Positions 8,747-25,340 of a stretch of 36,695 nucleotides of DNA are shown one piece after another (the stretch's first letter is position 1; each line of letters opens with the position of its first letter). The stretch is from a virus. The stretch covers positions 1 to 36,695 of IMG/VR virus record IMGVR_UViG_3300033144_006578; one strand, given 5' to 3'. Both the position numbers and the translations under genes were made by a program. The notes below the pieces were generated by a model. It worked only from the letters and a program-made list of their open reading frames with translations, had not been told where the DNA came from and made no database searches.

Positions 8747-9118
8747 ATGAAAGTCAAACCAGACTTTATAACCAACAGCTCATCTGTATCATTTATTATA
8801 GTTTTTCCAGAACATATGTTAAAAAAAGATTTTCCATTTTCCATGAGAAATTTTGAATCGTTTAGATGTTTTAAGAGCAAGAAAGCCCTTATCTCACACT
8901 GTCAAGATGCTCCATGTGACTGGATACATAATATAAGAGGACCTTCTGAATTTTACAATATGGCAGAAGAGAAATATAATATATTATTAGAACATCTACA
9001 AAATGGAGAGAACATAGTATATGCTGTACTTGATAGAAATGACCCATATAGGGTTGAAAAATTTCAAGATGTAGTTGTGAATGAAGGCGGTACAATAATA
9101 GAATGGGAGTCGGAATAA
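8747..9118 (+). CDS. Small protein with N-terminal KPDFITNSSS motif (copy 2)
   Basis: A 123-aa protein starting MKVKPDFITNSSSVSFIIV, the same motif as the protein at 5064; downstream the two differ. The body contains FRCFKSKKALISHCQDAPCDWIHNIRG and a C-terminal ENIVYAVLDRNDPYRV segment ending in acidic EWESE. The stop TAA overlaps the ATG of a radical SAM gene by one base, so the two are probably co-translated. Whether the radical SAM enzyme acts on this or any NSSS-motif protein is speculation from position. GAGGTAATAGT precedes the ATG. Confidence 0.72.
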   Translation: MKVKPDFITNSSSVSFIIVFPEHMLKKDFPFSMRNFESFRCFKSKKALISHCQDAPCDWIHNIRGPSEFYNMAEEKYNILLEHLQNGENIVYAVLDRNDPYRVEKFQDVVVNEGGTIIEWESE

Positions 9119-10152
9119 TGATAAGAATAGCTAATTGGTTGCTAACAAGAAAATGTAATCTCAAATGTGATTACTGTGCAATTGTAAAAAACTATGAAAA
9201 CAAACCAGCATCATATCCGGATATGAAATATTATCATTTGAACGAAATGCCAACATATAATGTGATTGAAGCTCTAGAAAAATTCAAGCTTCATAATCCG
9301 GATATGTTTCATATTTTCTATGGTGGTGAACCATTATTGCGAAAGGACTTAGCAGAGATAATCAAATTTTGCAATACAGAAAATATAGCTTATACTATTA
9401 TTTCAAACAATACCCCAGAAGTTCAGCCCATGATAATGAAATTATTAGATGACACTGGAAGGATTGATGGATTTACTGCATCAGTTGATCCGGTATTTCA
9501 AGAAACAGGAACACGTGATCGAGTCATAAAAAGCATTCATGGGTTGAACAATTTACTCATAATGAAAAAATATATAAAGGATGTTGTTGCTGAAATAACA
9601 GTTATGAAACATAATTTAAATTATCTACACCCCTTGGTTAAAAAACTAACCAGTGAGGGTATAAATAGCGATGTAACATTTATTGATATAGCCAAGACCC
9701 CATATTATGATTTCTCCAATATAACAGATAAACGATTATTGGTTGAAAGAAATGATATGTTAGCCTATCAATTTGAAAAATTAATATCTGAGGATTTGGA
9801 TATTCATATGAAGGAGATTCTTCTTCCTGAAATATGGAGAAACCTCCCATCAGATATGGATTGTGAAATAGATAAAAAATTACATAATATTTCTATAGAT
9901 GCTGATGGAACAATCAGACTTTGTCTGCGGATTCGTGGAGAGAATACTCCTAATAATGTATCTATTAAAAATCTTCTGAATGATGAGGGAGAAATAAATG
10001 ACTTTGCCCATACGATGATTAAAAGAGATAAAATAGATTTTTGTCAACATTGTAATCATACTTGTCAAATTATGAGCAAAGTGATAGAGCAAAGCGAATC
10101 AAATGCAGATGATTTAATACATATGGATAAAAGATCTAACTATGGAGGATAA
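9118..10152 (+). CDS. Radical SAM protein with SPASM/twitch-like C-terminus
   Basis: Start placed at ATG 9118, overlapping the preceding TAA by one base; a frame-extending ATG at 9103 is less likely. The 344-aa product has the CNLKCDYC motif (Cys13, Cys17, Cys20) that binds the 4Fe-4S cluster, and FYGGEPLL, the GGE SAM-binding motif. The C-terminal part has ISIDADGTIRLC followed by FCQHCNHTC, typical of auxiliary-cluster SPASM/twitch domains of peptide- or protein-modifying radical SAM enzymes. QueE, needed after QueD, is shorter and lacks this tail, so I do not call it QueE. The substrate is unknown. Confidence 0.88.
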   Translation: MIRIANWLLTRKCNLKCDYCAIVKNYENKPASYPDMKYYHLNEMPTYNVIEALEKFKLHNPDMFHIFYGGEPLLRKDLAEIIKFCNTENIAYTIISNNTPEVQPMIMKLLDDTGRIDGFTASVDPVFQETGTRDRVIKSIHGLNNLLIMKKYIKDVVAEITVMKHNLNYLHPLVKKLTSEGINSDVTFIDIAKTPYYDFSNITDKRLLVERNDMLAYQFEKLISEDLDIHMKEILLPEIWRNLPSDMDCEIDKKLHNISIDADGTIRLCLRIRGENTPNNVSIKNLLNDEGEINDFAHTMIKRDKIDFCQHCNHTCQIMSKVIEQSESNADDLIHMDKRSNYGG

Positions 10153-10520: not shown

Positions 10521-10931
10521 ATGGGAATTTTGAATACTTTGTTAGATGAAATAAAATCAAATGATCTAACACAACAAATAAGAGAGATATGTGATAAAAT
10601 TTTTGAAGAAGAAAAAGATAGAATTGAAAATATTGACTATATCATAACGGGGCCAAATGTATTTTTATGTTTAGATGTTCCTGGAAGAAATCAAAATGAA
10701 GTTGCATTTCTAAGTCTCGAAAGAGAATATGAAGAAACATATTTAGCAGTATTATGGACTTGGAGAAAAAACCAACTTGAAAACAATACTCCTGATGAAA
10801 TTGATCCACCCAAAAAGAGAGGAACTTGGGTTTTCAATGAAAACAAGGCACATAAAATATTAACCGAATATGCGAAGATCGTGAAACATCTCAAAGGAGA
10901 ATTTGATGGAACTAAAGGAAATACGAATTAA
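10521..10931 (+). CDS. 136-aa hypothetical protein ahead of the ubiquitin-like cassette
   Basis: The protein has an acidic N-terminal helical part (residues 1-35) and then a possible alternating strand region (IDYIITGPNVFLCLDVPG, VAFLSLEREYEETYLAVLW), followed by a helix. The last 26 bases overlap the start of the E2-like gene, so the two are likely translated together and this protein could be an accessory of the cassette. I recognise no family. GGAGG lies about 15 bases before the ATG. Confidence 0.65.
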   Translation: MGILNTLLDEIKSNDLTQQIREICDKIFEEEKDRIENIDYIITGPNVFLCLDVPGRNQNEVAFLSLEREYEETYLAVLWTWRKNQLENNTPDEIDPPKKRGTWVFNENKAHKILTEYAKIVKHLKGEFDGTKGNTN

Positions 10932-13458
10932 CCAACAATACACAAGTTTATTAAGTTCGGAGTACCCACTTACAGAACAAGATGAGTCAATTCCTAAAAC
11001 AAGAGAAAGAGTTTTACCTTCAGCTCTTTTCTATTCAAAGTTACTTAGCAATACTGATGAAACAAAAGCTAAAGAAAATATCTTACCTATGTATTGTCGA
11101 TTCAAAAAAGAATATAAAAACCATCATATTTATGTTTTAGAGGAACCGCCTGCTTTTCGAACAATCTCTTTAAGTCTTGATTTAACTCGAGAATTAGCAG
11201 AGATAGAAGCGGATGGGAAATTAGAAGAATATGGATATGAAAATTTACAAGTTTCACTGAATAATAGTCAAGGATATTCTGTCACTTTAGCCATGCCATT
11301 TTCTATCTTTATAGTAGGTGTTAAACTAAGCGGTTTTAATGTGGTTGGTGCCTGTTTTTTCTTTCGAACACACCCGTTGATTGGTATGGATGATTATCTT
11401 AATATTGCTCCTCTATTAAACATTGCACCTGAACAAGCTGTATGTTTTGGAAATGATGTTGGTGCTGATAATAGATCTATAGTAGCAGCTATAGAACAGG
11501 CTAGATCTTCTTGGTGGACATCAACATTCAATACAGATTATACTTATAACTATGAAGAATATCAACACACTCCAATGGTTTCAAATTATTTAGTGTGGCA
11601 ACATTGTTCTCAAGCCGATCCAATGTTTGTATATGGTGTTGAGTGGCTTAAACATAAGCATACTTTAAAACAAACAATAGATCATTTTGCTAAAGAGTAT
11701 GGGATGACTCATGTAGAAGGCAATAGCACTTCAAATATATTCAATGCTTTTCAGAAACCTTTTACATTGGGAAAAGAAGAAGTAATAAATGGAATGCCTA
11801 GTAAGCTCTATTATGATACATGTTCAGGAATCTATATAGAGGATATTCATATATCTGTAGGAGATTCATTTTCATATAAAGGGGAAACCTTATTTATCGA
11901 AGCATTTGGTAATTATGGTCATGAATGTGAAGCCAATCATATTCTATTGCGGAGAGCTGGAAAACAGTTTGCTTTTAAACTGACTAAAAAATCTAGGCAA
12001 TTTCTCAAAGAAAAAATTATAGAGCAGAGATATCTTCCAGAGGTAATAACTCCAACAGGAGTTACATTAAAAGCTAATCAAATTGTTTCTATGAATTCTC
12101 TCCTTGGTGCAAAAAAATATAGAAAAGTACACTATATTAGGCCAGCAATAGATGGAAGGCAGGAAGTATGTATGGGCTCATCATTCTATCTACTTGAAAA
12201 CTTAACAGAGCCCATGGAAATCATCAATACAGAAAACCCAACAATTTGGGGTATTCAAGTAAATAAAGACGACGAATATGTATATTGTCAGTGGGATCGA
12301 TCTCCAATGCCATTTGCTCGTACTTACGCATGTAAGTTTACAGGTATTGAACCCACTAGACGTGGAGACCTTGAGTTGATATTTAAAACTGATAATGATA
12401 ATTCATATACTATTCAGATGAATAACCAAGAACGTCAGCAACTTATATTTGAAAAACAGAAACTACAAGAAGTACCCAAAATCGTTGCTCTAGGAAGAAG
12501 GTTATTTCATAATAAAAACTACGATACTGGTGAGTTAATAAATCAATATACAAATGGAGAAACCACTTTCTTTGATCTAAATGGAGATATGCAAAATCCT
12601 GTGCATGATGATATAGTAAATGAATTTATAAATGGAGATACATTTAAAGTTTATATAAATAATGCTTATATGGAATTCAAAATTGGAGACAAGGTTGTAG
12701 TAGCAGATTGGAGTCAGCCATTAGATATTTTGAATGTAAAAACTATTACTGGGTTTGAAGATGACAAGCCTGTAAGAAAAATTAACTTTATTCTCCAAAA
12801 CAAGTATGGTGTTGAAAGTAAAGTGGAATATATAGATTCAGGAAATGGTCGTATACTTACTGGAAAGGTAAGAAAAATAACCAACGAATTTTCAGGAGTG
12901 CCGGCTGGAAGTAAAATCATTGCTCAAAATACTGGAATATCCTGCTTCCCGAAGAAAGACACTAATATTATTATAGGATTTTTAACAGATACAGGGATAG
13001 ATGAACCTCTGGTCTTATGTTCAAATGGTTGTACATTATGGTTTAATCATATGATGATGAACTTCGAAATTATTCCAAGCAATACTGATGCGTGGAATAA
13101 GAAGCAACATGCGCCCCTTGACCCTAGAAAAATAAAAATTCAACCTGGGGATATAGTTCTAGGAACTGGAAGTTATAGAAACACCTATGGCTATCTGTTG
13201 TATAGAGATAGACTATATAGGCGATTGAAATGTATGCTTCTTGAATATCCTACTCGGCTTGAATCTTATATAGTTGATTCTTATATATCTAGCTCAGTAA
13301 TGTTAGATTGTATTCCAAACCCAAGATATACTGAAAAACAAAGAAATGAACTAGGGTATATCACGGGATATCCAAATTTTAATGGAATGATTATCCCTTC
13401 TACACAAGATAATCGATGTATGTATATCGATGAACAAAGGAGTCCAACTGATGTTTAA
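10906..13458 (+). CDS. Large protein with N-terminal PRTRC-B/E2-like domain
   Basis: Start placed at ATG 10906, five bases after AAAGGAGA; a TTG at 10903 is too close. The 850-aa product's N-terminal ~220 residues follow the PRTRC system protein B pattern, grouped with Prok-E2_D (E2/UBC superfamily). It has RVLPSALFY (35-43), EEPPAFRTISLSL (79-91), a hydrophobic PFSIFIVGVKL strand (131-141), RTHPLIG (154-160) and NIAPEQAVCFGND (172-184), where Cys180 is in the place of an E2 active-site cysteine, followed by an SSWWTSTFNTDY segment. Residues ~260-850 are a beta-rich region that I cannot assign. It overlaps the JAMM gene by 8 bases. The E2 role is inferred from family and neighbours. Confidence 0.75.
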   Translation: MELKEIRINQQYTSLLSSEYPLTEQDESIPKTRERVLPSALFYSKLLSNTDETKAKENILPMYCRFKKEYKNHHIYVLEEPPAFRTISLSLDLTRELAEIEADGKLEEYGYENLQVSLNNSQGYSVTLAMPFSIFIVGVKLSGFNVVGACFFFRTHPLIGMDDYLNIAPLLNIAPEQAVCFGNDVGADNRSIVAAIEQARSSWWTSTFNTDYTYNYEEYQHTPMVSNYLVWQHCSQADPMFVYGVEWLKHKHTLKQTIDHFAKEYGMTHVEGNSTSNIFNAFQKPFTLGKEEVINGMPSKLYYDTCSGIYIEDIHISVGDSFSYKGETLFIEAFGNYGHECEANHILLRRAGKQFAFKLTKKSRQFLKEKIIEQRYLPEVITPTGVTLKANQIVSMNSLLGAKKYRKVHYIRPAIDGRQEVCMGSSFYLLENLTEPMEIINTENPTIWGIQVNKDDEYVYCQWDRSPMPFARTYACKFTGIEPTRRGDLELIFKTDNDNSYTIQMNNQERQQLIFEKQKLQEVPKIVALGRRLFHNKNYDTGELINQYTNGETTFFDLNGDMQNPVHDDIVNEFINGDTFKVYINNAYMEFKIGDKVVVADWSQPLDILNVKTITGFEDDKPVRKINFILQNKYGVESKVEYIDSGNGRILTGKVRKITNEFSGVPAGSKIIAQNTGISCFPKKDTNIIIGFLTDTGIDEPLVLCSNGCTLWFNHMMMNFEIIPSNTDAWNKKQHAPLDPRKIKIQPGDIVLGTGSYRNTYGYLLYRDRLYRRLKCMLLEYPTRLESYIVDSYISSSVMLDCIPNPRYTEKQRNELGYITGYPNFNGMIIPSTQDNRCMYIDEQRSPTDV

Positions 13459-14905
13459 TGTTTTTGTAAACGACGGCAGTCAAGAAATTCCAAAAGATGA
13501 TATATTCTTTATAGTCGCTAAAGAGGGAATCTTTCTAAAGAAAAAATTGGGAGTTATGGAAAGCATTGCACCTGTTAAAAATATTTCTACTCTTGATGGA
13601 ATAGAAAGTATGGCCAGGATGCATATAAATAAAATTCCAGCTCCCATGATTGCCAAAACTATTGAATTTTTCAGAAAAGTTAATGATGATCTAAACGGTT
13701 CTGAAGCTATTGTTCTGGATTTCTATAATATAGAAACTGGAAAACATAAAATAGATGCTCCATTTCAAAAAGTTAGTGGAGCGTCTTTAGACTATACCAA
13801 ACCAGCTTCACCTGAAGGGTGGAATATGATTGGAACTATTCATAGTCATAATACAATGTCAGCATTTCATTCATCTATGGATGATGCTGATGAAAAAAGT
13901 TTTGACGGACTCCATATTACAATTGGAAATGTTGATGAAGAATTTGTAAGCATATCAGCATCGATTGTTTCAAATGGTACGAGATTTATGGTTGATCCTG
14001 ATGAATATATTGGTGGGGTAAAATTGGTTGTAGATATAGATGACGAAGTAGAGAAATCATATGGAAACGTCTATAAATATGATCCAATCCAAAAGAAAAT
14101 GGTTACAGAGCCTTCAAAGTATACATACAAAGTTAAAATGTATGATAAACGCTATGATGTTGAAGTTACACCGGCTCAAAAAAAGTTTAATAAAAAATGG
14201 ATGAAAAGAACGAAATATGAAAGGCCAATATATAGTGGTTATTCCTATTCTGGATACTATGCACAAGCTGCTAAAAAGAGTGGATGGAGTGATGCATTTG
14301 ATTCTTCTTTATGGAATCAAGTGCACAAGAAAGATGAAAAGAAAGATGAAAAGCAGAAGAGTTTATTGCCATCTACTGAAGTTAAAAAAGAAGAGCCCAA
14401 ATTCACAGGTCACGTTGAAATTGAAAAAGTAGAAGATGATGTTAATCCGTGTGAAGAGTGCGTATTTAAAAACCATAAAATTGATTGGGTTCTAGAGCAG
14501 ATAACCGAAGAAGTAGATGAAGATGAAAGAGACCATTGGGAATGTTTACATTGTCATACGCTCTTCAATACAGAAGCTGGTGATGAAGGAATCTGCCCAA
14601 CATGTAAAAGCGATTTATATGTTATACAAGCAGAAGAAATGGATATGCAAGATGAGGAAATAGTACATTGTAAAACTTGTGGAAGTTCTACAACTATAGA
14701 TCACTTCAAAGGCGGAGAATGTCCTTTTTGTGGTACTCTTGTTATTCCAGACCAAACTATTGAATATCCATTAAGAGAAACAGATGAAGAGGTTGAGGCT
14801 AGCTGCGGAACCGAGGATTTAGAAAGAATTCCAATTCCTGGAGCAGAATCTCTTCCCCTTCCACACAAACCAGGTTTTCTAAAAGGATTATTTAAAAGGA
14901 GTTAG
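13451..14905 (+). CDS. JAMM/JAB deubiquitinase-like peptidase with zinc ribbons (PRTRC-A-like)
   Basis: Start placed at ATG 13451 after AAAGGAG; an ATG 7 codons earlier lacks a ribosome site. The 484-aa product has the complete JAMM zinc motif: Glu85, then HSHNTMSAFHSSMDD with His131, His133, Ser141 and Asp144. The surrounding text (FFIVAKEGIFL at the start, HSHxTMxAFxSxxDDADE) closely follows PRTRC system protein A. A Tyr/Ser-rich linker and a Lys/Glu stretch (about 290-330) lead to five CxxC pairs (334/337, 365/368, 382/385, 407/410, 424/427), at least two zinc ribbons. The likely role is cleaving an isopeptide bond made with the ubiquitin-like protein encoded downstream. Confidence 0.88.
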   Translation: MFNVFVNDGSQEIPKDDIFFIVAKEGIFLKKKLGVMESIAPVKNISTLDGIESMARMHINKIPAPMIAKTIEFFRKVNDDLNGSEAIVLDFYNIETGKHKIDAPFQKVSGASLDYTKPASPEGWNMIGTIHSHNTMSAFHSSMDDADEKSFDGLHITIGNVDEEFVSISASIVSNGTRFMVDPDEYIGGVKLVVDIDDEVEKSYGNVYKYDPIQKKMVTEPSKYTYKVKMYDKRYDVEVTPAQKKFNKKWMKRTKYERPIYSGYSYSGYYAQAAKKSGWSDAFDSSLWNQVHKKDEKKDEKQKSLLPSTEVKKEEPKFTGHVEIEKVEDDVNPCEECVFKNHKIDWVLEQITEEVDEDERDHWECLHCHTLFNTEAGDEGICPTCKSDLYVIQAEEMDMQDEEIVHCKTCGSSTTIDHFKGGECPFCGTLVIPDQTIEYPLRETDEEVEASCGTEDLERIPIPGAESLPLPHKPGFLKGLFKRS

Positions 14906-14907
14906 AA

Positions 14908-15588
14908 ATGGATATTGTTATAATCGGACTAGGTGGAATTGGTTCTATTCTATGTGAAAGACTAGCAAGATTTCTTACTTATTCAGATGAGTTAAGATCA
15001 TCTAATATTATGCTAGTAGACGGAGACTATTACGAAGATAAAAATTATGAAAGACAGGAATTCAAATCTATAGGGAACAAGGCTAAAATAAAACTCACAG
15101 ATCTAAGCCTACAGTTCTCAGATCTTAACATTGCTGCACTAGATGTTTTTATAAATGATGAGACAGCAAAGGGAATAATTAAAGAAGATAGCGTAGTATT
15201 ATTGTGTGTTGATAATCATAAGACCAGAATGATCGTATCCAATTACTGTAAAACACTACAAAATGTTACTCTGATTTCTGGTGGGAACGATTACGAAGAT
15301 GGGAATGTTCAAATCTATGTCAGGAAAGATGGTGAAGATTTAACACCAGACTTATGTTCATACCATCCAGAAATTGCAAATCCCGACGACAAGTTACCAG
15401 AAGAAATGTCATGTGAAGAGTTAGCAAACTCTAGTCCCCAATTATACTTTGCGAACCTGGGGGCCGCAACTTTAATGTGTTGGGCTTTTTATAACTTTGT
15501 TGTAAAAGGCGAAACGTCAAAAGCATCTGAAGTATATTTTGATATAAAAACAATGTGCTCAAATGCTCAAGAGCGTGCAGTGAAATGA
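14908..15588 (+). CDS. ThiF/E1-like adenylating enzyme (PRTRC ThiF-like)
   Basis: This 226-aa protein has a Rossmann ATP site IIGLGGIGS (residues 5-13), the acidic VDGDYYEDKNYERQEF block that E1/ThiF/MoeB enzymes use to bind ATP and the ubiquitin-like tail, and LLCVDNHKTR (conserved Asp). MSCEELANSSPQLYFANLGAA near 170-190 contains Cys172, a candidate catalytic thiol, in the same setting as PRTRC ThiF proteins. Such enzymes adenylate the C-terminal glycine of a beta-grasp partner; that partner is encoded next. AAAAGGAG precedes the ATG, three bases after the JAMM stop. Confidence 0.87.
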   Translation: MDIVIIGLGGIGSILCERLARFLTYSDELRSSNIMLVDGDYYEDKNYERQEFKSIGNKAKIKLTDLSLQFSDLNIAALDVFINDETAKGIIKEDSVVLLCVDNHKTRMIVSNYCKTLQNVTLISGGNDYEDGNVQIYVRKDGEDLTPDLCSYHPEIANPDDKLPEEMSCEELANSSPQLYFANLGAATLMCWAFYNFVVKGETSKASEVYFDIKTMCSNAQERAVK

Positions 15589-15620
15589 TTTGCAAATCAA
15601 ATTCAATCAAGGAGTAACAA

Positions 15621-16100
15621 ATGTCATACAAAAGAGAAACACTGGAACTAAAGACGGATAAAGAACTTAAAAGAATGTGTTCCCAAAGACTGGGAATTCA
15701 CGGCGTGTCAAAGAAAAGAAAGCACGAAGTGATCGACATCATCATGTCCAAATACGGAAAAGCTGGAAAGAAAAAGGCCCTCAAGGCTTCCAAAGCTCCA
15801 GTCGAAGCCCCAGCCAAGCTGGAAGGGGTAGAGGGTTCATTCCAAAGTTCCTTGACAAAACCAGGAGCTGACTTTGGTTTTAAAACCTCCACAACAGTCC
15901 AAGTTTCATGTGGCGCCAACACTGGAAAATTTCCGGTAGTGGGTCGCACCGTGGCAGAGGTTGGAGAATTTATGCGGGAAGTTCTCAATGTGGATAAACT
16001 TTCAACAGGTCTGGTCAATGGTAAGGATGTTGATGGAAACTATATCCTGAAAACAGGAGATGTTCTTGAATTCCTAAAACCCGCAGGCCGTAAGGGCTAG
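15621..16100 (+). CDS. SAP-like plus ubiquitin-like beta-grasp protein ending in Gly
   Basis: The 159-aa protein has three parts. Residues 8-45 (LKTDKELKRMCSQRLG..SKKRKHEVIDIIMSKYG) look like a SAP/Rho-N helix-extended-loop-helix module. Residues 48-85 form a Lys/Ala/Pro linker. Residues ~90-159 read as a ubiquitin-like domain: TVQVSCGANTGKFPV, a central helix, then LVNGKDVDGNYILKTGDVLEFL and the tail KPAGRKG, like PRTRC protein C, ThiS and MoaD, which end in an exposed glycine. The gene is GC-richer than its neighbours (45-55% in several lines), suggesting different codon selection, perhaps for high expression. It sits between two E1-like genes. CAAGGAGTAACAA precedes the ATG. Confidence 0.8.
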   Translation: MSYKRETLELKTDKELKRMCSQRLGIHGVSKKRKHEVIDIIMSKYGKAGKKKALKASKAPVEAPAKLEGVEGSFQSSLTKPGADFGFKTSTTVQVSCGANTGKFPVVGRTVAEVGEFMREVLNVDKLSTGLVNGKDVDGNYILKTGDVLEFLKPAGRKG

Positions 16101-16105
16101 ACTGC

Positions 16106-16139
16106 ATAGTTGTGGGACTCATTTTGAGTCCCACACTAT
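16106..16139 (+). terminator. Strong RNA hairpin after the ubiquitin-like gene
   Basis: Eleven perfect base pairs (TGTGGGACTCA at 16111-16121 with TGAGTCCCACA at 16125-16135) close a TTT loop. Four more pairs (ATAG 16106-16109 with CTAT 16136-16139) extend the stem past a single bulged T. No T-run follows, so it is not a standard intrinsic terminator; mRNA 3'-end protection, processing or partial attenuation are alternatives. It lies 6 bases after the stop of the ubiquitin-like gene and just before the next ribosome site. Confidence 0.55.
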
Positions 16140-16153
16140 TAAAGGAGAGAATC

Positions 16154-16396
16154 ATGTCATATAGTACTGACAAAGATAAATTGATAAAAGCATGGGAATA
16201 TGAATACGAAAAAGGGTCATTACTATTTGCTATTATGGAATATAATGGTGGAGGACCCAAACTCCAAATGACAAGGATGTACAAAAAGAAAGACGATGAA
16301 GTTGGTTATGCTAAAGTAGGAAGAATGAACCGCGAAGAGGTTCAATTTCTTATTGACAATAGTGAGGAAATACTTGAATATATAAAGGGAGGATAG
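16154..16396 (+). CDS. PC4/YdbC-like single-strand nucleic acid-binding protein
   Basis: Start placed at ATG 16154 after AAAGGAGAGAATC; the longer frame would run through the hairpin. The 80-aa product has SLLFAIMEYNGGGPKLQMTRMYKKK followed by KVGRMNREEVQFLIDNSEEILEYI. A strand pair with a NGGxPKxxxxR core and a C-terminal helix opening with an xLxxEE-like turn is the layout of PC4/p15 and YdbC proteins, which bind single-stranded DNA and modulate transcription. The resemblance is moderate. It could serve the phage RNA polymerase encoded downstream; this is inference. Confidence 0.6.
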   Translation: MSYSTDKDKLIKAWEYEYEKGSLLFAIMEYNGGGPKLQMTRMYKKKDDEVGYAKVGRMNREEVQFLIDNSEEILEYIKGG

Positions 16397-16399
16397 TAT

Positions 16400-17260
16400 T
16401 TGGCATATCGGAATATTGCAATAATCGGGTTAGGAACATTAGGTGGATTTGTAGCAGATGCTCTATCTACTTTGGAAAATACCGAAGAATTGATCATTAT
16501 AGATCATGATATAGTAGAAGTAGAAAACTTAAAAAATACAATCTACCGTGAAATTGATATTGGTCTTTTAAAAACAGAGGCTATTGAAGATATAATAAAA
16601 TCTAGAAATCCCTCCATCTCTATTAAAAGATTCTCTGAAAAATTTATTGAGGGGAAGACATTTATTCCTAAATGTAATTTGGTTCTTGATTGTAGAAATT
16701 ATACTTATGATAGGATGGGGGAGATTGACGCAAGACTGTATATATCATCACGATATTTAATTATGGATTGCAGGAAGAAAGCGCACTATGTAAATAAGCG
16801 TAAAGGTGAATATTTATTATATCTCACAAAAGATGATCTTCGTAGCGCCTCTTATATAGTATCTATGCTAATTAATGGGGGCACAATTGCAGAACTAATT
16901 AAAGATCAAAAAATTGAAAAGTATGAATTAGATCATTTTAAGACATTTGATAATGCTTGTTATGATATTGTTTATGAGAAGTTTCTTGGCGGGGATAAAT
17001 TTGTAAACCTACCAGAAAAGATCATTCCAATTATTAATCATAATAAGAAGTCAGCCCTTGAAGTTATAATTGGAACTAAAGAGGCTCCGGATCTAGAAAG
17101 ACTAATTCCAAAAGGTACTTTGAAAACAAGTGGTGATGTTGTAGTAAATTTAGCAGCATTAACAAATTTACATTGTGAATTTAATAACTATGTAATTGCT
17201 GTTCATGAGGATAAAAGAAAACTTATTATTGAACTGATCCCAGAAACAGGCGCAGCATAA
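16400..17260 (+). CDS. Second ThiF/E1-like protein (TTG start)
   Basis: TTG 16400 is used as start because AAAGGGAGGA lies 6 bases upstream and the Rossmann strand begins at residue 5. The 286-aa product has IAIIGLGTLGG (residues 6-16), the DHDIVEVENLKNTIYREIDIG acidic/Asn/Arg block, KTEAIEDII, and LVLDCRNYTYDR in place of the usual D-x-x-x-x-R strand end. This is an E1/ThiF fold but differs from the first copy. It has no obvious PRTRC-type transfer Cys motif, and a C-terminal ~100-residue extension is unassigned. It overlaps the E2-like gene by one base. It may pair with that E2-like protein. Confidence 0.72.
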   Translation: MAYRNIAIIGLGTLGGFVADALSTLENTEELIIIDHDIVEVENLKNTIYREIDIGLLKTEAIEDIIKSRNPSISIKRFSEKFIEGKTFIPKCNLVLDCRNYTYDRMGEIDARLYISSRYLIMDCRKKAHYVNKRKGEYLLYLTKDDLRSASYIVSMLINGGTIAELIKDQKIEKYELDHFKTFDNACYDIVYEKFLGGDKFVNLPEKIIPIINHNKKSALEVIIGTKEAPDLERLIPKGTLKTSGDVVVNLAALTNLHCEFNNYVIAVHEDKRKLIIELIPETGAA

Positions 17261-17592
17261 TGGAAGTAACAGAGAAAAAAGTCAACGATATTTTCGTTCC
17301 GAAACGAATGATATATCAGAATAAACTATATAAAATAAAGAAATTTGACACGAAATATATTATAAAAGGATATAGAGTTGACTTAATAGATGGAAAACTT
17401 TTTAACATAATCATCGACGGAGTTCATCCAAATGCAGATCCAATAACCAATGATTTTTGTCTTCCTGATTCTTTATATGATAAGGAATTCGATAAAAAAA
17501 CAAGACATGTTATCGAAAATATGTTGCGAACTTTTAATGTTGATGCGTGTTATTTCACTCCGTGGGGTGAAATTGAATTTGAAGAAGACTAG
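17260..17592 (+). CDS. Small E2/UBC-like candidate with HPN-x8-Cys
   Basis: The ATG overlaps the stop of the second E1-like gene (TAATG). In this 110-aa protein, YRVDLIDGKLFNIIIDG is followed by HPNADPITNDFCLPD: His56-Pro57-Asn58 then Cys67. Canonical E2 enzymes have HPN, seven residues, then the catalytic Cys followed by Leu; here there are eight, also with Leu after the Cys. A helix (TRHVIENMLRTF) and a C-terminal YFTPWGEIEFEED follow. The protein is shorter than a full UBC fold (about 150 aa), as are some bacterial E2-like families. The E2 call is an inference from the motif and the E1-JAMM-Ubl context. Confidence 0.6.
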   Translation: MEVTEKKVNDIFVPKRMIYQNKLYKIKKFDTKYIIKGYRVDLIDGKLFNIIIDGVHPNADPITNDFCLPDSLYDKEFDKKTRHVIENMLRTFNVDACYFTPWGEIEFEED

Positions 17593-18067: not shown

Positions 18068-20731
18068 ATGCCAAATATTTTAAGCTATAATTCATTTTGT
18101 GAAAACCTAGACGAAATAACGTCTCTAAAAACAGTAGGGAAGAAAAAGTTTCATCCTAAAGGCTTATTCTCTGAACAAATCTTTGGTCCGGTTAGAAACT
18201 ATACATGTCAATGTGGGGTGTATTATGGAGTTTCAAAATCTGGAGGAAAATGTAAAGAGTGCGAGGTTGATATTATTAACAGCGACTCTAGAAGAAAAAG
18301 ATTTGCAAAAATAACTTTACCAATTCCTGTTGTTAATCCATTATTTTTAGATCTTCTTATAGATCTCGGAGGAACCAGTTTAAAAAGAGCCCTTCACGAT
18401 CTTATGGAAAAAGATAAAAGTATTCTATATATAGATGGTGAAGATTTTATTGTTACACTAGATGCAACACAGGTACCAAGTGGAAGTCAAACGTGGGAAA
18501 AGGCGGAAGCTATTTATGAACTTGTTAAGAATATTGCGAATCTTATGAAAGATGAAATTCTAGAATGGAGAATTGTAACAGATAACATAGATAATTTGTT
18601 GATTGATAAAATAATTGTTCTACCCCCGGACCTCAGACCTACCTCAAAAAGATCTGGCGACAGCAAACAATTAATGGACAAAATTAATAGGTACTACATT
18701 CAAATACTGACAAAGAAAGAAGCCATGGGGGAAACAATCATAAATATTAATAGAGATAAAACTCTATACTATACTTACTTTAGACAATTACAAAAAGATA
18801 TCAATGAATTATATCACAGAATTTTAGAAAAGATGGCTAAAAAAGAAGGTTTAATAAGAGGCAATATTCTTGGAAAGAGAATCGATTTTTCAGGAAGAGC
18901 AGTAATTGTTCCTGATCCAACTTTATCTCTGAATGAGTGTAAGCTTCCATATCTAATGATTCTCGAAATATTTAAATTACCGATAGCAAAAAGAATCATT
19001 GAACTGGGTAAGTTTAAACTTCTTAATAAAGCAATAAATTTTGTTGATCAATGTATTGACTCCAATTCTCCTGTTCTATATAGAGTATGCGAAGAAATTG
19101 TAGAAGATGAAGTATGTATTTTGAATAGGCAGCCATCATTACATAAACTCGGAATGCTGGGGTTTGACATAAAATTAACCCTCGACAAAGTGATTAAAAT
19201 TCATCCGCTTTCATGTCCTCCATTTAACGCTGACTTCGATGGAGACCAAATGGCAGTTTATATTCCAATTACAAAAGAAGCAAAGGAAGAAGTAAGAAAT
19301 AAAATTTCAATCATTAAAAATTTAAGCAGCCCAGCAAACGAAAGTTTAACAACTACACCCAGTCAAGATATTATTCTGGGAATATATTTCTTAACTGCTG
19401 GAGAATTTAAAGATGTAGATGGTCAGAAAATTTTCAATGATTGTCTGCCAGAAGATTATCCTGAAATAATAGGAGTTGTTGATAACAACCACCTGTTAGA
19501 TATCTTAAATGACGTAAAAAATAATTATTCAGATGTGATAACAAGTAATGTTTTAGATAATATAAAAAGGATAGGTTTTAAATATTCTACGTTATATGGT
19601 TGTACCATATCGTTAGAAGATTGTCGAATGGATGGAGCTAAAGAATTACAGCGAGAAATATACGCAACAGATGATATAAGAGAACAACTTGTTAAGTTCT
19701 CCGACTCGAAATTAGAAGATGCCCTTAAAGAGAATTTTAATTACTCATACATGATTGAATCTGGAGCAAGAGGAAGTTGGGATCAAGTAAAACAATTAGT
19801 GCTCACACGCGGTTTCATTTCAAATTTCGATGGAGAAATTTTACCCTTACCAATTAAACACAGCTTAATTGAAGGATTAAATCAAGAAGAATTTTTCTAT
19901 TCAACATATGGTTGTAGAAAAGGTTTGCTTGATGTTGCTCTCAATACAGGGACATCGGGTTACTTATCTAGAAAATTAATATTTACTTGCGCAAACCTGC
20001 AAATTGATACTGAGTTACAAGACTGCGGAACAGAAGATTGTCTTAATGTGAAAGTTGATAGTGCGAGAAAAGCGAGAATGTTAGTTAATAGATACCATAT
20101 AGTCAAAGGATCTTTGCACAAGATTACAAAAGAAAATTGTTTAGATTTAATTGAAAAAACAATTTATCTTAGAAGCCCTATATTATGCACATCTCCAAAA
20201 ATTTGTCAGACATGTTATGGAGATTTGTATAAAACTATTAATAGTAGATTTATAGGAATTCTTGCAGCCCAAACTCTAGGAGAAAGAGGAACCCAATTAG
20301 TCCTTAGAACATTCCATACATCTGGGTCTGCCGTAATTCAAGGATCTGAAGACAACGGTTCAATGAAACAAAAAGATATTATTGGTGATCTTGCTACAGT
20401 TGCAGGATTATTACACAAGTTTAAAAACAAGACATATACAGATATAGTTAAAGAATTATTTGATGTATATGCTAAAAATATTTACCATGTCCATTTTGAA
20501 TGTGTAGTCGCACAGTTAATGTGGAAAGACTTCACAAAATGGAGATTACTCAAAGATAGAGATACTACACCACCAACTTTTCATAGTATACAATCAGTGC
20601 CAAATAAAGAAAGTTGGATTCTGGCTATGGCATTCTCCAACCCAAAGCGTTCAATTCTTCAGGGAATATTATATGAAGGAAGATATTCGGGCGTTATGGA
20701 TAAGATTTTAAAAGGAGAAAAGATAGAATGA
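18068..20731 (+). CDS. rpoC: Phage multisubunit RNA polymerase beta' subunit, single chain
   Basis: An 887-aa intact beta' homologue. The N-terminus has the HPKGLFSEQIFGP motif and a zinc ribbon CQC...CKEC (Cys47, 49, 62, 65). The double-psi barrel holds LGKRIDFSGRAVIVPDP, RQPSLHKLGMLGF and NADFDGDQMAV (387-395), where Asp389, 391 and 393 bind the catalytic Mg. The bridge-helix/trigger-loop region reads AAQTLGERGTQLVLRTFHTSG near 731-751. Bacterial beta' is about 1,150-1,400 aa, so lineage insertions are missing, but both halves are in one gene; in phiKZ-like and AR9-like phages the subunits are split. AAGGAGAGTAATGA precedes the ATG. It forms the phage polymerase core with the beta subunit at 20907. 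Confidence 0.96.
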   Translation: MPNILSYNSFCENLDEITSLKTVGKKKFHPKGLFSEQIFGPVRNYTCQCGVYYGVSKSGGKCKECEVDIINSDSRRKRFAKITLPIPVVNPLFLDLLIDLGGTSLKRALHDLMEKDKSILYIDGEDFIVTLDATQVPSGSQTWEKAEAIYELVKNIANLMKDEILEWRIVTDNIDNLLIDKIIVLPPDLRPTSKRSGDSKQLMDKINRYYIQILTKKEAMGETIININRDKTLYYTYFRQLQKDINELYHRILEKMAKKEGLIRGNILGKRIDFSGRAVIVPDPTLSLNECKLPYLMILEIFKLPIAKRIIELGKFKLLNKAINFVDQCIDSNSPVLYRVCEEIVEDEVCILNRQPSLHKLGMLGFDIKLTLDKVIKIHPLSCPPFNADFDGDQMAVYIPITKEAKEEVRNKISIIKNLSSPANESLTTTPSQDIILGIYFLTAGEFKDVDGQKIFNDCLPEDYPEIIGVVDNNHLLDILNDVKNNYSDVITSNVLDNIKRIGFKYSTLYGCTISLEDCRMDGAKELQREIYATDDIREQLVKFSDSKLEDALKENFNYSYMIESGARGSWDQVKQLVLTRGFISNFDGEILPLPIKHSLIEGLNQEEFFYSTYGCRKGLLDVALNTGTSGYLSRKLIFTCANLQIDTELQDCGTEDCLNVKVDSARKARMLVNRYHIVKGSLHKITKENCLDLIEKTIYLRSPILCTSPKICQTCYGDLYKTINSRFIGILAAQTLGERGTQLVLRTFHTSGSAVIQGSEDNGSMKQKDIIGDLATVAGLLHKFKNKTYTDIVKELFDVYAKNIYHVHFECVVAQLMWKDFTKWRLLKDRDTTPPTFHSIQSVPNKESWILAMAFSNPKRSILQGILYEGRYSGVMDKILKGEKIE

Positions 20732-20910
20732 GAGATCCAAAAAGAATATATGAAATGCTTAAATTAATAGGAGAGATTTGGGAGAAATACCCAGATCTCA
20801 GACTATTACAACTATTACTAAATGTAGCAGATAGTGATGAAACTGCCTATAATTTAGAGGATCCTGATTTAATGAAGAGACTAAAAAAATGGAGGGACAA
20901 TATAAATTGA
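20728..20910 (+). CDS. 60-aa DUF1040-like protein between RNAP genes
   Basis: It overlaps the beta' stop (ATGA) after AAAAGGAGAAAAGATAG. The sequence MRDPKRIYEMLKLIGEIWEKYPDLRLLQLLLNVA followed by a YNLEDPDL block fits a small conserved family (MRDPKRI..iL..i..iW...PdlRl.QLi.N......y..eDd.l) that I recall as DUF1040, seen in bacteria and phages. It is probably all helical. Its position between beta' and beta, with overlaps at both ends, guarantees co-expression with the polymerase, but that does not prove a role in it. Confidence 0.72.
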   Translation: MRDPKRIYEMLKLIGEIWEKYPDLRLLQLLLNVADSDETAYNLEDPDLMKRLKKWRDNIN

Positions 20911-23906
20911 ATATCATAAACCCAAATTTTAAAATTCAAGAGGATAATATATTCTCAATCAGAAGAAAAGACTACGAAAATATTTTACCAGCAGTTGAAC
21001 AGATAGTTAAACCAGTTGAAGAAATTGGCTTTGTTATCAACGAAATAAGTTTGAAGGACTCAAGATTTTCATCAGGAGAATTGTTAAAAACAATTAAACA
21101 AACACTAGTCATAAAACTACAAAAGGGATCATCAAATATTGATCTTAGTATTTTCATTCCTAAATTGACAGAGGATAATTATATTATAATCAATGGGAGA
21201 AAGAAAATTCCTTTATTTCAATTGTTTGATATCCCAGTAGTGACTAGAGGAGCAAATATTAAATTAAGAACTAATGTTGCTACCCTAATGGTTTTTAAAG
21301 ACAAAGATCCGCCGTATGTCAAATTGAGTTTTTTAGGGAAAAAAGTTTCATTAGCATTATTCCTTTTAGCATGTTACGGAATAGAGGCAGTCACTGAAAG
21401 ATTTGAACTTGAGACAGAAGAAATAAAAGAGGATAGTGATGTGTTGTATGAAAATCTTTTAGAGGATTTGAAAATTGCTTGTGATGAATCTATGGGTTAT
21501 ACACAAGACGATTTTGTTTTAGAGATTGGAAAAATTTACTCTAAGTTTGCTGCAAAATCAAAGGGCGAAGATATAATGTATGCACTTGATCTTATCCCAA
21601 AAGTAGATATAATCACATCAAAATTTTTGAATACAGATTCAATTCTCGAAGAAATTATTCTATCAATTAAAATTGATCAAGTTGATGATACTTTATTTAC
21701 AAATAAAAGAATTCGATGTTTTGAATATATGGTAACTGCAAAAGTTTCGAAAATCATTTTCGATCTCTGCTTTTCAAACCGAACAGCCAGACAACCAAAG
21801 TTTAACATCAGTTCAACTCAAATTTTATCAGAGTGTAATATTTCTGATATAGTTCAGTTTGACTTTTCAATCAATCCTATTGAAGAGCTTACTAAATTAT
21901 CAAGGCTGAGCTTATTAGGTCCAGGTGGATTCAAAAGAGAAAACATACCAAAACATCTAAGAGATATTTACCCATCAATGTTTGGAAGAGTTTGCCCGGT
22001 GGATACCCCAGATAGAGACAATTGTGGGGTTCTGCAAAATCTCCTACCAAATGTGAAGCTGGATCAAGATTTACGTTTCACAGAAGAATCATTAGATAAA
22101 TCTCCAGTTTCAATTCCAGTATCTATGACACCATTCCTGCAAAATGATGATCAAACTAGACTTCAAATGGCGGCGTCACAAATGAGGCAGGCCATTATGC
22201 TTAGAGATTTTGATTCTCCATTCATAAAATCTGGCTGTGAAGATCTATATACTGATCAGACACAATTCGTTAAACGGGCTAAACAAGATGGGGAAGTTAT
22301 ATATGTTGACAATCAGTATATTATTGTAGCATATGTGGATGGTAGTTTTGATATCTTTGATATTAACTCCAGAAAGATTTATGTTGAACACTTAGATTTT
22401 ATGAAAGTTTATATCAATCCAGGAGACAAATTTAAATCTGGTGATATATTAGCTGAAAGCAACTTCTGTAAAGATGGAAGCATTACCATTGGAAGAAATT
22501 TACTAACAGGAGTTATGGTTCATTATGGGAATAATTATGAAGATGGTATTGTTATTTCCGATCGCCTACAGAAAGAGAAGATCTTTACATCAGTACATTA
22601 TAAAGATTTGTCTTTTAATATCACTCCAGATAAAGTTCTATTATCTTTAGATAGCGAAAAATACAAGCCACTACCAGAGGAGTTTGAAAAAATTAAAATA
22701 GGTGATCCATATGCAATCATCAAAAAGTTAAATTCAGACGATTTCTATTCAGTCTTTTCGGAAGAGTTTGTATTGGAAGCAAAGAAGAATTTTCTAATAT
22801 CAGACGTTAATGTATATGCAAACAGTTGGAATACAGAAATTCCTGAGTATAAGGATTGGATTGAAACAAGAATCTCCACACAGCAAGAAAAAGAAAATAA
22901 TTTACAAAAAGTTATCAAAGACCATTTACCAAAAGAGCAAGCAATGACATTTATTCGAGAAAACAATTTAGACAAGTTTTCTTTTGTAGAAAAATACAAA
23001 GAAAAAAGAGAACGAATCAATGGAGTTAATTTTCATATAGTAGGAATTCATTTTAGACAAATTCAAGTTGGAGACAAAATTGCGAACAGGCATGGAAACA
23101 AAGGAGTTATTTCTAAAATTATTCCTCATGAGAAAATGCCAAAACTTGAAGATGGGCGGAACCTTGATATATGTATTAACCCCCTTGGTATTATTTCAAG
23201 AATGAATGTAGGACAAATATACGAGCTTCATCTATCTAAATCATTTGAAGACTTAAAACAAAACATGTTACAAATGCTAAAAGAGAAGTTACCACAAAAA
23301 CAAATAAAAGATTATCTAAAGATGTATATAGAAATTTTAGATAAAACAGAAACTGGTTGGTATTATAAACAGTTCAAAGATCAGATACCAAAAAAGATCG
23401 ATGAGCAATTTATAGATGAATTAACTTTAATTCAACCTCCATTTGAATCTTCTGGAATAAAACAAGTTACCAAAGCAATGGAATATACCGGGACGGACTA
23501 TAAGTTTAAGTTGTTCGACCCAGTTTCCAAAGTAGACTTGCTAAATAAAATTGCTGTAGGATATATCTACTTCTTTAGAATGGTTCATATTGCTGAAGAA
23601 AAATTGGCTGCAAGAGGAATCGGAGCCTACGCAAGACGAACCCTTCAACCACTGGGAGGAAGAAAAAACAAAGGTGGTCAAAGGTGTGGAGAAATGGAAA
23701 CAGCGTGTTTAATTGGGCATGATGCTCCAACAAATCTATTTGAATTTTTTACTACAAAATCAGATTGTATTGATCTAAAAAATAACTATATTCGAAATGT
23801 TATCGAAAGCGATTTTGTAGAAGATGAGAAACAATTAGATAGTGTTCCTGAATCAGTAAAACTTTTAAATGCGTATCTAACTGTTATAGGAGTAGAGCAT
23901 AAATGA
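20907..23906 (+). CDS. rpoB: Phage multisubunit RNA polymerase beta subunit, single chain
   Basis: TTG 20907 is the preferred start: GGAGGGA is 9 bases upstream and it overlaps the previous stop (TTGA). ATG 20889 is in frame but has no ribosome site. The ~999-aa product has FGRVCPVDTPDRDNCGVLQNL (about 357-377; bacterial RICPIETPEGPNIGL), YGNNYEDGIVISDRL near 542-556, GDKIANRHGNKGVISKIIP near 722-740 with both catalytic-site lysines, INPLGIISRMNVGQIYELHL, and GGQRCGEMETACLIGHDA near 922-939, which anchors the clamp. It is slightly shorter than bacterial beta (about 1,100-1,340 aa). No alpha, omega or sigma is visible in the window, as is usual for phage enzymes of this class. Confidence 0.95.
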   Translation: MNIINPNFKIQEDNIFSIRRKDYENILPAVEQIVKPVEEIGFVINEISLKDSRFSSGELLKTIKQTLVIKLQKGSSNIDLSIFIPKLTEDNYIIINGRKKIPLFQLFDIPVVTRGANIKLRTNVATLMVFKDKDPPYVKLSFLGKKVSLALFLLACYGIEAVTERFELETEEIKEDSDVLYENLLEDLKIACDESMGYTQDDFVLEIGKIYSKFAAKSKGEDIMYALDLIPKVDIITSKFLNTDSILEEIILSIKIDQVDDTLFTNKRIRCFEYMVTAKVSKIIFDLCFSNRTARQPKFNISSTQILSECNISDIVQFDFSINPIEELTKLSRLSLLGPGGFKRENIPKHLRDIYPSMFGRVCPVDTPDRDNCGVLQNLLPNVKLDQDLRFTEESLDKSPVSIPVSMTPFLQNDDQTRLQMAASQMRQAIMLRDFDSPFIKSGCEDLYTDQTQFVKRAKQDGEVIYVDNQYIIVAYVDGSFDIFDINSRKIYVEHLDFMKVYINPGDKFKSGDILAESNFCKDGSITIGRNLLTGVMVHYGNNYEDGIVISDRLQKEKIFTSVHYKDLSFNITPDKVLLSLDSEKYKPLPEEFEKIKIGDPYAIIKKLNSDDFYSVFSEEFVLEAKKNFLISDVNVYANSWNTEIPEYKDWIETRISTQQEKENNLQKVIKDHLPKEQAMTFIRENNLDKFSFVEKYKEKRERINGVNFHIVGIHFRQIQVGDKIANRHGNKGVISKIIPHEKMPKLEDGRNLDICINPLGIISRMNVGQIYELHLSKSFEDLKQNMLQMLKEKLPQKQIKDYLKMYIEILDKTETGWYYKQFKDQIPKKIDEQFIDELTLIQPPFESSGIKQVTKAMEYTGTDYKFKLFDPVSKVDLLNKIAVGYIYFFRMVHIAEEKLAARGIGAYARRTLQPLGGRKNKGGQRCGEMETACLIGHDAPTNLFEFFTTKSDCIDLKNNYIRNVIESDFVEDEKQLDSVPESVKLLNAYLTVIGVEHK

Positions 23907-24464: not shown

Positions 24465-25340
24465 ATGACAGACCTACCTGATATTCAAGAAACAAAGCCT
24501 AATATTCCTATTCCCATTATGCAAGTCGGAGTCGAAAATGTAGAGGTTCCTTTTAATTTAGAATCTAAATATGGAGGCTTCCATCAAATGGTAGCCAATG
24601 TATCTATGCGAACAAGTTTGGATGCAAAGACAAAAGGAATTTCTATGTCAAGACTTCTATTAACTCTGAAACCATATCTCGAATTACCATTGAAAAGTAA
24701 GTTGATTAAAGAGATATTGGAAAAAATAATAGACAATGTTGGAATGGGTGCTGCTTTTATGAAATTTGAATTTAGACTTCCCATAAAAAGAAAATCTATT
24801 ATTTCAGAAAATGAGTTTCCAATCTATTATAAGTGCAGATTTGAAGGGCAATTATATCGAGTCCCTCCTAAAAAAGAATTGGATGAATATTGTGTCCCGC
24901 AAAATTACTTTACATTCTATCAAGGCGTGACTATTCAATATGCATCTTATTGTCCTTGTTCTGCTGAACTATGTGAAGCAACAGATGAAAAGGGGTTCCC
25001 TCATAATCAAAGGTCGTTTGCTAATATCTTAATTCAGAGAGATGATAAGCACTATATTTGGTTAGAGGATATTATTGAACAAGTAGAAACCAGATTAGCA
25101 ACTATACCCTACCCAATAATCAAAAGAGTTGACGAACAAGAAATTGGAAAACTTGCAGCAAAAAATCCAATGTTTGTTGAGGATGCAATTAGAGAAATTT
25201 CATATGTTTTAAACTCAATGCCTGGTGTAATTGATTGGATTGTAAAGTGTAGTCATGAAGAATCAATCCATACATCTGAAGCAATTGCAACTAACTATAA
25301 AGGCATAAAGGGTGGTTTTGATGCCAGGAGGTTTATATGA
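24465..25340 (+). CDS. folE2: GTP cyclohydrolase FolE2 (type IB)
   Basis: A 291-aa protein matching FolE2 throughout. It has VSMRTSLDAKTKGISMSRLL (46-65; the KGIHMSR block), TIQYASYCPCSAELCEA (156-172; CPCS contains the active-site Cys), PHNQRS (179-184; catalytic His180) and HEESIHTSEAIA (264-275). The enzyme hydrolyses GTP to dihydroneopterin triphosphate without needing the zinc used by FolE. That product is the substrate of the QueD-like enzyme at 3243, so the phage could supply two early steps towards preQ0 or pterins. TAGGAGAA precedes ATG 24465; its stop overlaps the next start. Confidence 0.93.
   Translation: MTDLPDIQETKPNIPIPIMQVGVENVEVPFNLESKYGGFHQMVANVSMRTSLDAKTKGISMSRLLLTLKPYLELPLKSKLIKEILEKIIDNVGMGAAFMKFEFRLPIKRKSIISENEFPIYYKCRFEGQLYRVPPKKELDEYCVPQNYFTFYQGVTIQYASYCPCSAELCEATDEKGFPHNQRSFANILIQRDDKHYIWLEDIIEQVETRLATIPYPIIKRVDEQEIGKLAAKNPMFVEDAIREISYVLNSMPGVIDWIVKCSHEESIHTSEAIATNYKGIKGGFDARRFI

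Follow-up and report, generated by a model that had tools for sequence, protein, structure and literature searches.

Bacteria are known to use ubiquitin-like conjugation chiefly for defence against phages, and the Bil (BilABCD) toolkit combines a ubiquitin-like protein (Ubl) with an E2, a JAB protein and an E1. In type II cyclic-oligonucleotide-based anti-phage signalling systems (CBASS) the E1 and E2 are fused, and the PRTRC / Prok-E2_D operons of plasmids encode an E2-D, a JAB, an E1 and a small Ubl whose C-terminal Gly is conserved. Lambda-type phages carry Ubl and JAB genes (TAPI/TAPK) with neither E1 nor E2, and their JAB goes with NlpC/P60. The window analysed here, the whole of IMG/VR virus record IMGVR_UViG_3300033144_006578 (36,695 bp), contains on its + strand at 10906–17592 a cassette of six ubiquitin-like-system genes and one small open reading frame (ORF), in the order E2D, JAB, E1a, UBL, E1b, E2x, followed by the genes for RNA polymerase beta' and beta. 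We take it, with a probability of about 0.72, that the phage owns here a reversible system of ubiquitin-like protein conjugation and uses it in the course of infection.

No earlier description of such a phage cassette was found in the literature searched, in which subscription literature was not covered, and two jumbo-phage reviews do not mention a Ubl/E1/E2/JAB system. As far as searched, both the E1b–E2x pair and the occurrence of such a system in phages are novel.

A core of four genes akin to plasmid operons

The E2D protein (10906–13458) has a Prok-E2_D / PRTRC_B-like E2 domain at residues ∼50–220, containing N173 and C181 and followed by ∼600 residues with no family match. The window protein matches Prok-E2_D only weakly, at an E-value of 0.0014, and seven of 15 relatives match it as well (best 3e-6). 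Combined into a profile, 35 phage E2Ds align to the plasmid PRTRC_B/E2-D proteins (hhalign 94.9%, E 4.8e-8), which places C181 on the candidate catalytic Cys of the latter, and both C181 and N173 are kept in 35/35. The PRTRC_A-like JAB/JAMM metalloprotease (13451–14905) matches Prok-JAB (4.6e-8) and PRTRC_A (2.5e-11). A first-pass annotation made from the sequence had proposed that its JAMM site is intact, and all five residues of E92, H138-S-H140-x7-S148-x2-D151 (numbering counted from 13430) are invariant (41/41); the zinc-ribbon-like motifs at its C-terminus had escaped that annotation.

The ThiF/E1-type adenylating enzyme E1a (14908–15588) matches ThiF at 6e-18 and PRTRC_ThiF at 9.6e-10 over residues 2–217, nearly its full length, with general ThiF models scoring slightly higher than PRTRC_ThiF. 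Its GxGGxG motif and D38, D40, N46, R49, Q50, K58, D102 and C169 are invariant (41/41). The UBL protein (15621–16100) joins a C-terminal beta-grasp domain to a SAP/Rho-N-like N-terminus, a feature that the first-pass annotation did not record and that gives a Rho_N match in 27 of 40 relatives (best 8.6e-10), with TGS/ThiS at the C-terminus. A direct profile–profile comparison of window-type UBLs with plasmid Ubls is not significant (2.5%); a chain of profiles leads instead from the window-type UBLs to the short phage UBLs (97.8%), on to the repeats of Bacillus phage KLEB27-3 (89%) and from there to the plasmid PRTRC_C-type Ubls (88%). The tails are also alike, AGxKG in the phage UBLs and RRAVGTKG or RAAGTKG in plasmid PRTRC_C. 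The window UBL ends KPAGRKG and so already has the bare end, as do 43 of ∼80 distinct UBL-profile proteins that stop at KG; 15 carry one extra Cys and others have 1–9 residues more, so that what follows KG may be nothing, C, R, YK, SL, LA, DRKGC or others. Such variable residues fit an end that is processed by a protease.

The first-pass annotation had likened the first four components to PRTRC B, A, ThiF and C, and this is borne out by the PRTRC_A and PRTRC_ThiF matches, the E2D alignment and the UBL profile chain, together with the shared B-A-ThiF gene order, the AGxKG/AVGTKG tail and the conserved catalytic-site residues. The nearest operon kind, matched by its description, is probably type 6d (Iyer et al. 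2006; PMC1779556). Against the NCBI PRTRC cut-offs of 101.8, 144.75 and 131.45 bits the core proteins reach 43.5, 38.2 and 12.1 bits, far below, and are thus a sister branch and not PRTRC proper. In type 6d E2s a His is conserved on the C-terminal side of the E2 Cys (PMC1779556), whereas the phage E2Ds have no conserved His after the Cys, and within their residues 1–300 no His is conserved at ≥90% among the 35. The phage set further differs from PRTRC in that E2D and JAB are extended by large C-terminal regions and UBL bears a SAP-like head, in the extra E1b–E2x pair and in its location on a phage next to RNA polymerase. As to the PRTRC partners ParB, E and F, scans of the window neighbours with Pfam and PHROGs only showed no ParB. 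Judged by sequence, the first four genes represent a branch of the plasmid PRTRC / E2-D system that has diverged.

Single-sequence matches of the UBL C-terminus, all weak, are best to ThiS/TGS/MoaD, and the protein might accordingly be a ThiS/MoaD/Urm1-like sulfur carrier that is activated by E1a and serves to make a modified RNA base or a cofactor. Genes for a radical SAM protein (from 9103) and FolE2 (from 24465) lie near, and JAB, ThiS and ThiF operons without an E2 are known in sulfur metabolism (PMC1779556). However, two proteins of the cassette carry a candidate E2-type catalytic Cys, the frequent extra residues after KG would require a protease, the core is homologous to PRTRC operons that do contain an E2, and neither a rhodanese nor a cysteine desulfurase was found among the window proteins scanned. 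To our knowledge, sulfur-carrier pathways lack E2-type cysteine proteins. We consider thiolation quite unlikely.

Several variants of the UBL gene were seen in related loci. Separate small proteins upstream of E2D (L050:352–714, L055:236–676 and L061:240–677) match the UBL profile and have no KG tail, the match probably coming from the SAP-like head. In Bacillus phage vB_BauM_KLEB27-3, gp199 (L027:6727–7411), upstream of the E2D, JAB and E1 genes, is a tandem Ubl gene of four near-identical 57-residue units, each ending KAGVKG with the next Met following and the last carrying the tail MPRIVVK. The gene is thus built like a polyubiquitin gene, and because this phage is named and its host strain is on record, it is open to experiment there. 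In Alicyclobacillus and Rubrobacter plasmids (L101:4982–5923; L103:4761–5771) a Ubl-like segment is joined to the JAB, with the junction directly after KKG.

A second E1-like and E2-like pair

E1b (16400–17260) is a second E1-like protein, with a ThiF match at 1e-15 and a predicted ThiF fold (AlphaFold2 predicted local distance difference test, pLDDT, 88). Its nearest structures are CBASS Cap2 (Foldseek top, 2e-9), PaaA, ThiF and UBA5, it matches CBASS E1-E2 in PADLOC (2.8e-11), and it retains GxGxxG, D35, K58 and a D/N at position 100. Profiles of E1a and E1b were built from separate seeds and merge when iterated; in the tree, E1b forms a clade of its own. A single profile scan of bacterial genomes gave no E1b relatives, and matches in Moraxella phages were set aside because they cover the N-terminal third only.

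The likeness to Cap2/Cap3 CBASS includes the adenylation domain of E1b, a JAB as deconjugase and the logic of a C-terminal Gly or Ala. The phage cassette differs in that E1b and E2x are separate genes and not a fusion, in the HPN loop of E2x and in its dedicated Ubl, and no cGAS/CD-NTase was present among the window proteins scanned. Kinship with Bil had also been raised in the first-pass annotation, and the set of Ubl, E2, JAB and E1 is indeed the same; yet Bil is host-borne, the phage cassette has two E1/E2 pairs, and PADLOC v2 (2023), whose library is perhaps thin for Bil, returned no Bil component, while E1b lies nearest to CBASS Cap2. Membership of Bil was rejected for want of a profile match in that library.

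E2x (17260–17592; 110 residues) is modelled with a pLDDT of 95 as beta strands, an HPN...C loop and a helix, with neither an N-terminal helix nor C-terminal helices. H56, N58 and C67 are kept in 42/42 aligned sequences, and in a wider set HPN occurs in 59 of 67 and HxN in 63 of 67. The window protein has no family match, one relative matches Pfam UQ_con at 0.0059, and the E2x profile finds only two chains in the PDB, both of them E2s aligned at the HPN...C loop (E 0.13 and 0.72). Among the PDB matches listed in a structure search, E2s had the highest template-modelling scores (0.38–0.44, at E-values of at least 1.7), and the BFVD matches include an E2 of Bodo saltans virus, not significant. 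The loop of the diverged L184 copy reads HPNCDKNGYYCL, near the eukaryotic form. With eukaryotic ubiquitin-conjugating (UBC) fold E2s the phage protein shares the HPN and Cys of the active-site loop, but it is only ∼110 residues long and the structural likeness is not significant. From motif and modelled topology, E2x is probably a minimal E2. The idea that E2x is itself a diverged E2D was considered and is not supported (hhalign 0.1–0.4%).

The E1b C-terminus (PETGAA in the window) deserves separate mention, since 64 of 72 distinct proteins have GAA, GGA or GSA as their last three residues. Conserved Gly or Ala also ends the conjugated cGAS proteins of CBASS (PMC10097602), and with Cap2 as the nearest relative the Gly-x-Ala tail of E1b may itself undergo adenylation and conjugation in the way that Cap2 treats the C-terminus of cGAS, which would make E1b a second modifier. 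The exact ending is absent from the divergent copies in L184 and L162, the C-terminal region has no detectable kinship to UBL (hhalign 0.3%) and it can be read as an ordinary ThiF-fold helix-hairpin. We know of no precedent for an E1 that serves as its own tag, and regard the idea as unlikely. A fused Ubl in this region, suggested by a predicted beta-beta-alpha-beta-beta arrangement before the Gly-x-Ala end, was likewise tried and rejected at hhalign probabilities of 0.1–0.4% against UBL, short UBLs, KLEB27-3 repeats and PRTRC_C-type Ubls. A fuller scheme of two arms and two modifiers, in which UBL would pass through E1a and E2D and the E1b C-terminus through E2x, with one JAB editing both and the whole acting on phage transcription complexes, appears very unlikely.

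Conservation and linkage to RNA polymerase

Loci were gathered by scans with E1a, E1b and E2x, and by a separate scan with beta' alone. There are 60 distinct loci with all six genes and beta', nearly all of them in other IMG/VR phage contigs of up to 312 kb, and their order and strand never differ; the cassette is not a chance association. In the beta' scan (best 80 of 487) the full cassette was present in 62 of the 67 contigs with enough upstream sequence. Of the 18 contigs without the full set, 13 end too early upstream, and the five informative ones are L162 (E1b and E2x only), L165 (none), L170 (core four only) and L181 and L184 (diverged). Because the scan took the best 80 of 487, the linkage is claimed within this clade and not for all phage RNA polymerases. 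Ahead of beta', L184:1699–9002 has genes for an E1, a JAB, an asparagine-synthase-like protein, an E1b of short length and a 260-residue E2x, with no UBL detected.

All six genes show signs of purifying selection, the non-synonymous rate (dN) lying well under the synonymous rate (dS) in every measurable comparison among five pairs. E2D and JAB change fastest, as might be expected if the cassette served counter-defence or host takeover by tagging host proteins of defence, transcription or proteolysis, a proposal that departs from ours in the target only and that gains from the occurrence of the same chemistry, and of Cap2 as a relative of E1b, in host systems. Most counter-defence genes come and go, however, and this cassette is nearly fixed in its clade; nor is any host target or defence locus linked to it. 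Host proteins as the target are thus possible but doubtful.

A near-fixed cassette beside one of the phage RNA polymerases inverts the usual picture of defence, as here the tagging system belongs to the virus, and suggests that the very large phages of this group put chemical tags on proteins while they infect. With a single Ubl, a single JAB and two each of the E1-like and E2-like proteins, the set is also compact enough for experiments on the multiplication of E1–E2 pairs, the evolution of maturation tails and the gain that tagging brings to a virus.

Proposed mechanism

There is a good case, from the gene content, that the cassette carries out protein conjugation: a full set of parts for conjugation and deconjugation stands in one gene run, its catalytic residues are invariant or nearly so, and two proteins carry E2-type cysteines. 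The varying residues after KG, the KLEB27-3 repeats, the plasmid Ubl–JAB junctions, the SAP/Rho-N head, the E1b/E2x overlap and the constancy of the cassette among its loci speak for it as well. From these genes, their homologies, order and low dN relative to dS, we infer the following course of activation, transfer, conjugation and removal. JAB would trim UBL to its AGxKG end, and E1a would adenylate the terminal Gly and hold UBL as a thioester on C169, from which it would pass to C181 of E2D. The long C-terminal region of E2D may select or hold substrates, to which UBL would be attached and from which JAB would take it off again. E1b and E2x may provide another arm by which conjugation is widened or redirected; in it E1b would be an E1 in its own right or else the partner half of E1a. 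Through its SAP-like head, UBL would carry tagged proteins to nucleic acid, and this head, together with the RNA polymerase neighbourhood, makes nucleic-acid-bound or transcription proteins the first guess at a target; the phage RNA polymerase or other nucleoprotein components are a tentative choice only.

Several observations weigh against this scheme. E2D and E2x are both remote from characterised E2s, and no significant structural match was found for E2x (best PDB E 0.63, best BFVD E 0.56). In E1b the position of the NLxRQ Arg is mostly N, T, S or K, and no second conserved Cys of the downstream thioester type is present, only C98 (in 'DCR') being near-invariant; without these, E1b is possibly not a complete E1 alone. 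The extra E1/E2 pair announced by the first-pass annotation stands, with E2x being E2-like in motif and topology. E1b/E2x are missing from L170, where the core four are present, and in L162, a fragment of 92 kb, it is the core four that are missing and E1b/E2x that are present, a split which implies that the two arms need not work together. The cassette includes no E3 and no defined substrate. Lastly, the cassette block of relatives also includes genes for radical SAM and WYL_2 proteins, as well as SbcC/SbcD in contigs long enough to show them, which makes adjacency to RNA polymerase weak evidence for the target.

Gene layout and neighbourhood

All six ORFs claimed in the first-pass annotation are present where it placed them, and its starts at 10906 and 13451 are correct over the longer ORF starts at 10903 and 13430, because a strong Shine–Dalgarno sequence (AAAGGAG) precedes each. 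Shine–Dalgarno sequences are also found at 14908, 15621, 16154 and 16400, the last with a TTG start codon. The E2x start at 17260 has none of its own and overlaps the E1b stop (TAATG), as in most loci; E1b and E2x are probably translated as a coupled pair. Between UBL and E1b the small gene SML (16154–16396), not noted earlier, encodes an 80-residue protein with no family match, and homologues occur in several loci, a minority of relatives.

RNA polymerase genes do follow the cassette, as had been claimed: beta' (18068–20731, + strand; RNA_pol_Rpb1_2, 6e-33) is the fixed gene downstream and beta (20889–23906, + strand; RNA_pol_Rpb2_6, 8.9e-51) comes next. Each of six clade records tested (G001–G004, G010 and G011) has two beta' genes, only one of them flanked by the cassette, which therefore adjoins one of two RNA polymerases. 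The other window genes encode a topoisomerase subunit, a UvsW-like helicase, SbcD, SbcC, a radical SAM protein and a terminase, and the terminase and SbcCD genes agree with the phage origin assumed at the outset. In relatives, the radical SAM/SPASM-like protein (9103–10152) and FolE2 (24465–25340) flank the block of cassette and RNA polymerase.

This setting bears on a possible role in morphogenesis or tail assembly, where JAB and Ubl would act in virion assembly like lambda TAPI/TAPK and the E1/E2 relatives would be structural or maturation factors. Ubl and JAB are paired in lambda-type phages (PMC1779556), and the E2D, JAB and E1a homologues of Salmonella phage Arash appear in published virion mass spectrometry (PMC10585845). 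Yet the window JAB has no NlpC/P60 domain in the family scan, and the cassette lies among genes of DNA and RNA metabolism with the terminase ∼13 kb off. The Arash list of 116 proteins also contains ribonucleotide reductase and a nucleotide kinase (PMC10585845), so that lysate carry-over is likely, and it was set aside as proof of virion location. A morphogenetic role is highly improbable. In Arash itself (L025:1519–4539) the three homologues have no evident Ubl nearby.

Other phage clades and origin

A second phage clade (L010–L024, up to 268 kb) carries E2D-JAB-E1a-UBL. None of its loci was assigned an E1b, and whole-record searches of three of its members found no E2x; by sequence comparison, the E1b–E2x pair is an addition found only in the clade of the window. 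The two phage clades fall together in the E1a tree (100/99), and Bacillus phage KLEB27-3 and the gut contig MT835919 are placed among Firmicutes plasmids, a sign that they acquired the genes separately.

The second clade has two more E2D-like paralogues, in tandem and downstream of its core four (L012:15633–18115; L015:15612–18403; L019:15400–17918), each with a candidate Cys, and these extra hidden Markov model matches look like real paralogues and not noise. The gene after UBL in this clade (L012:11095–12723; L015:11143–12747) is AAA+ ATPase-like, with a Walker motif recognised by eye, and its product is a possible reader or unfoldase.

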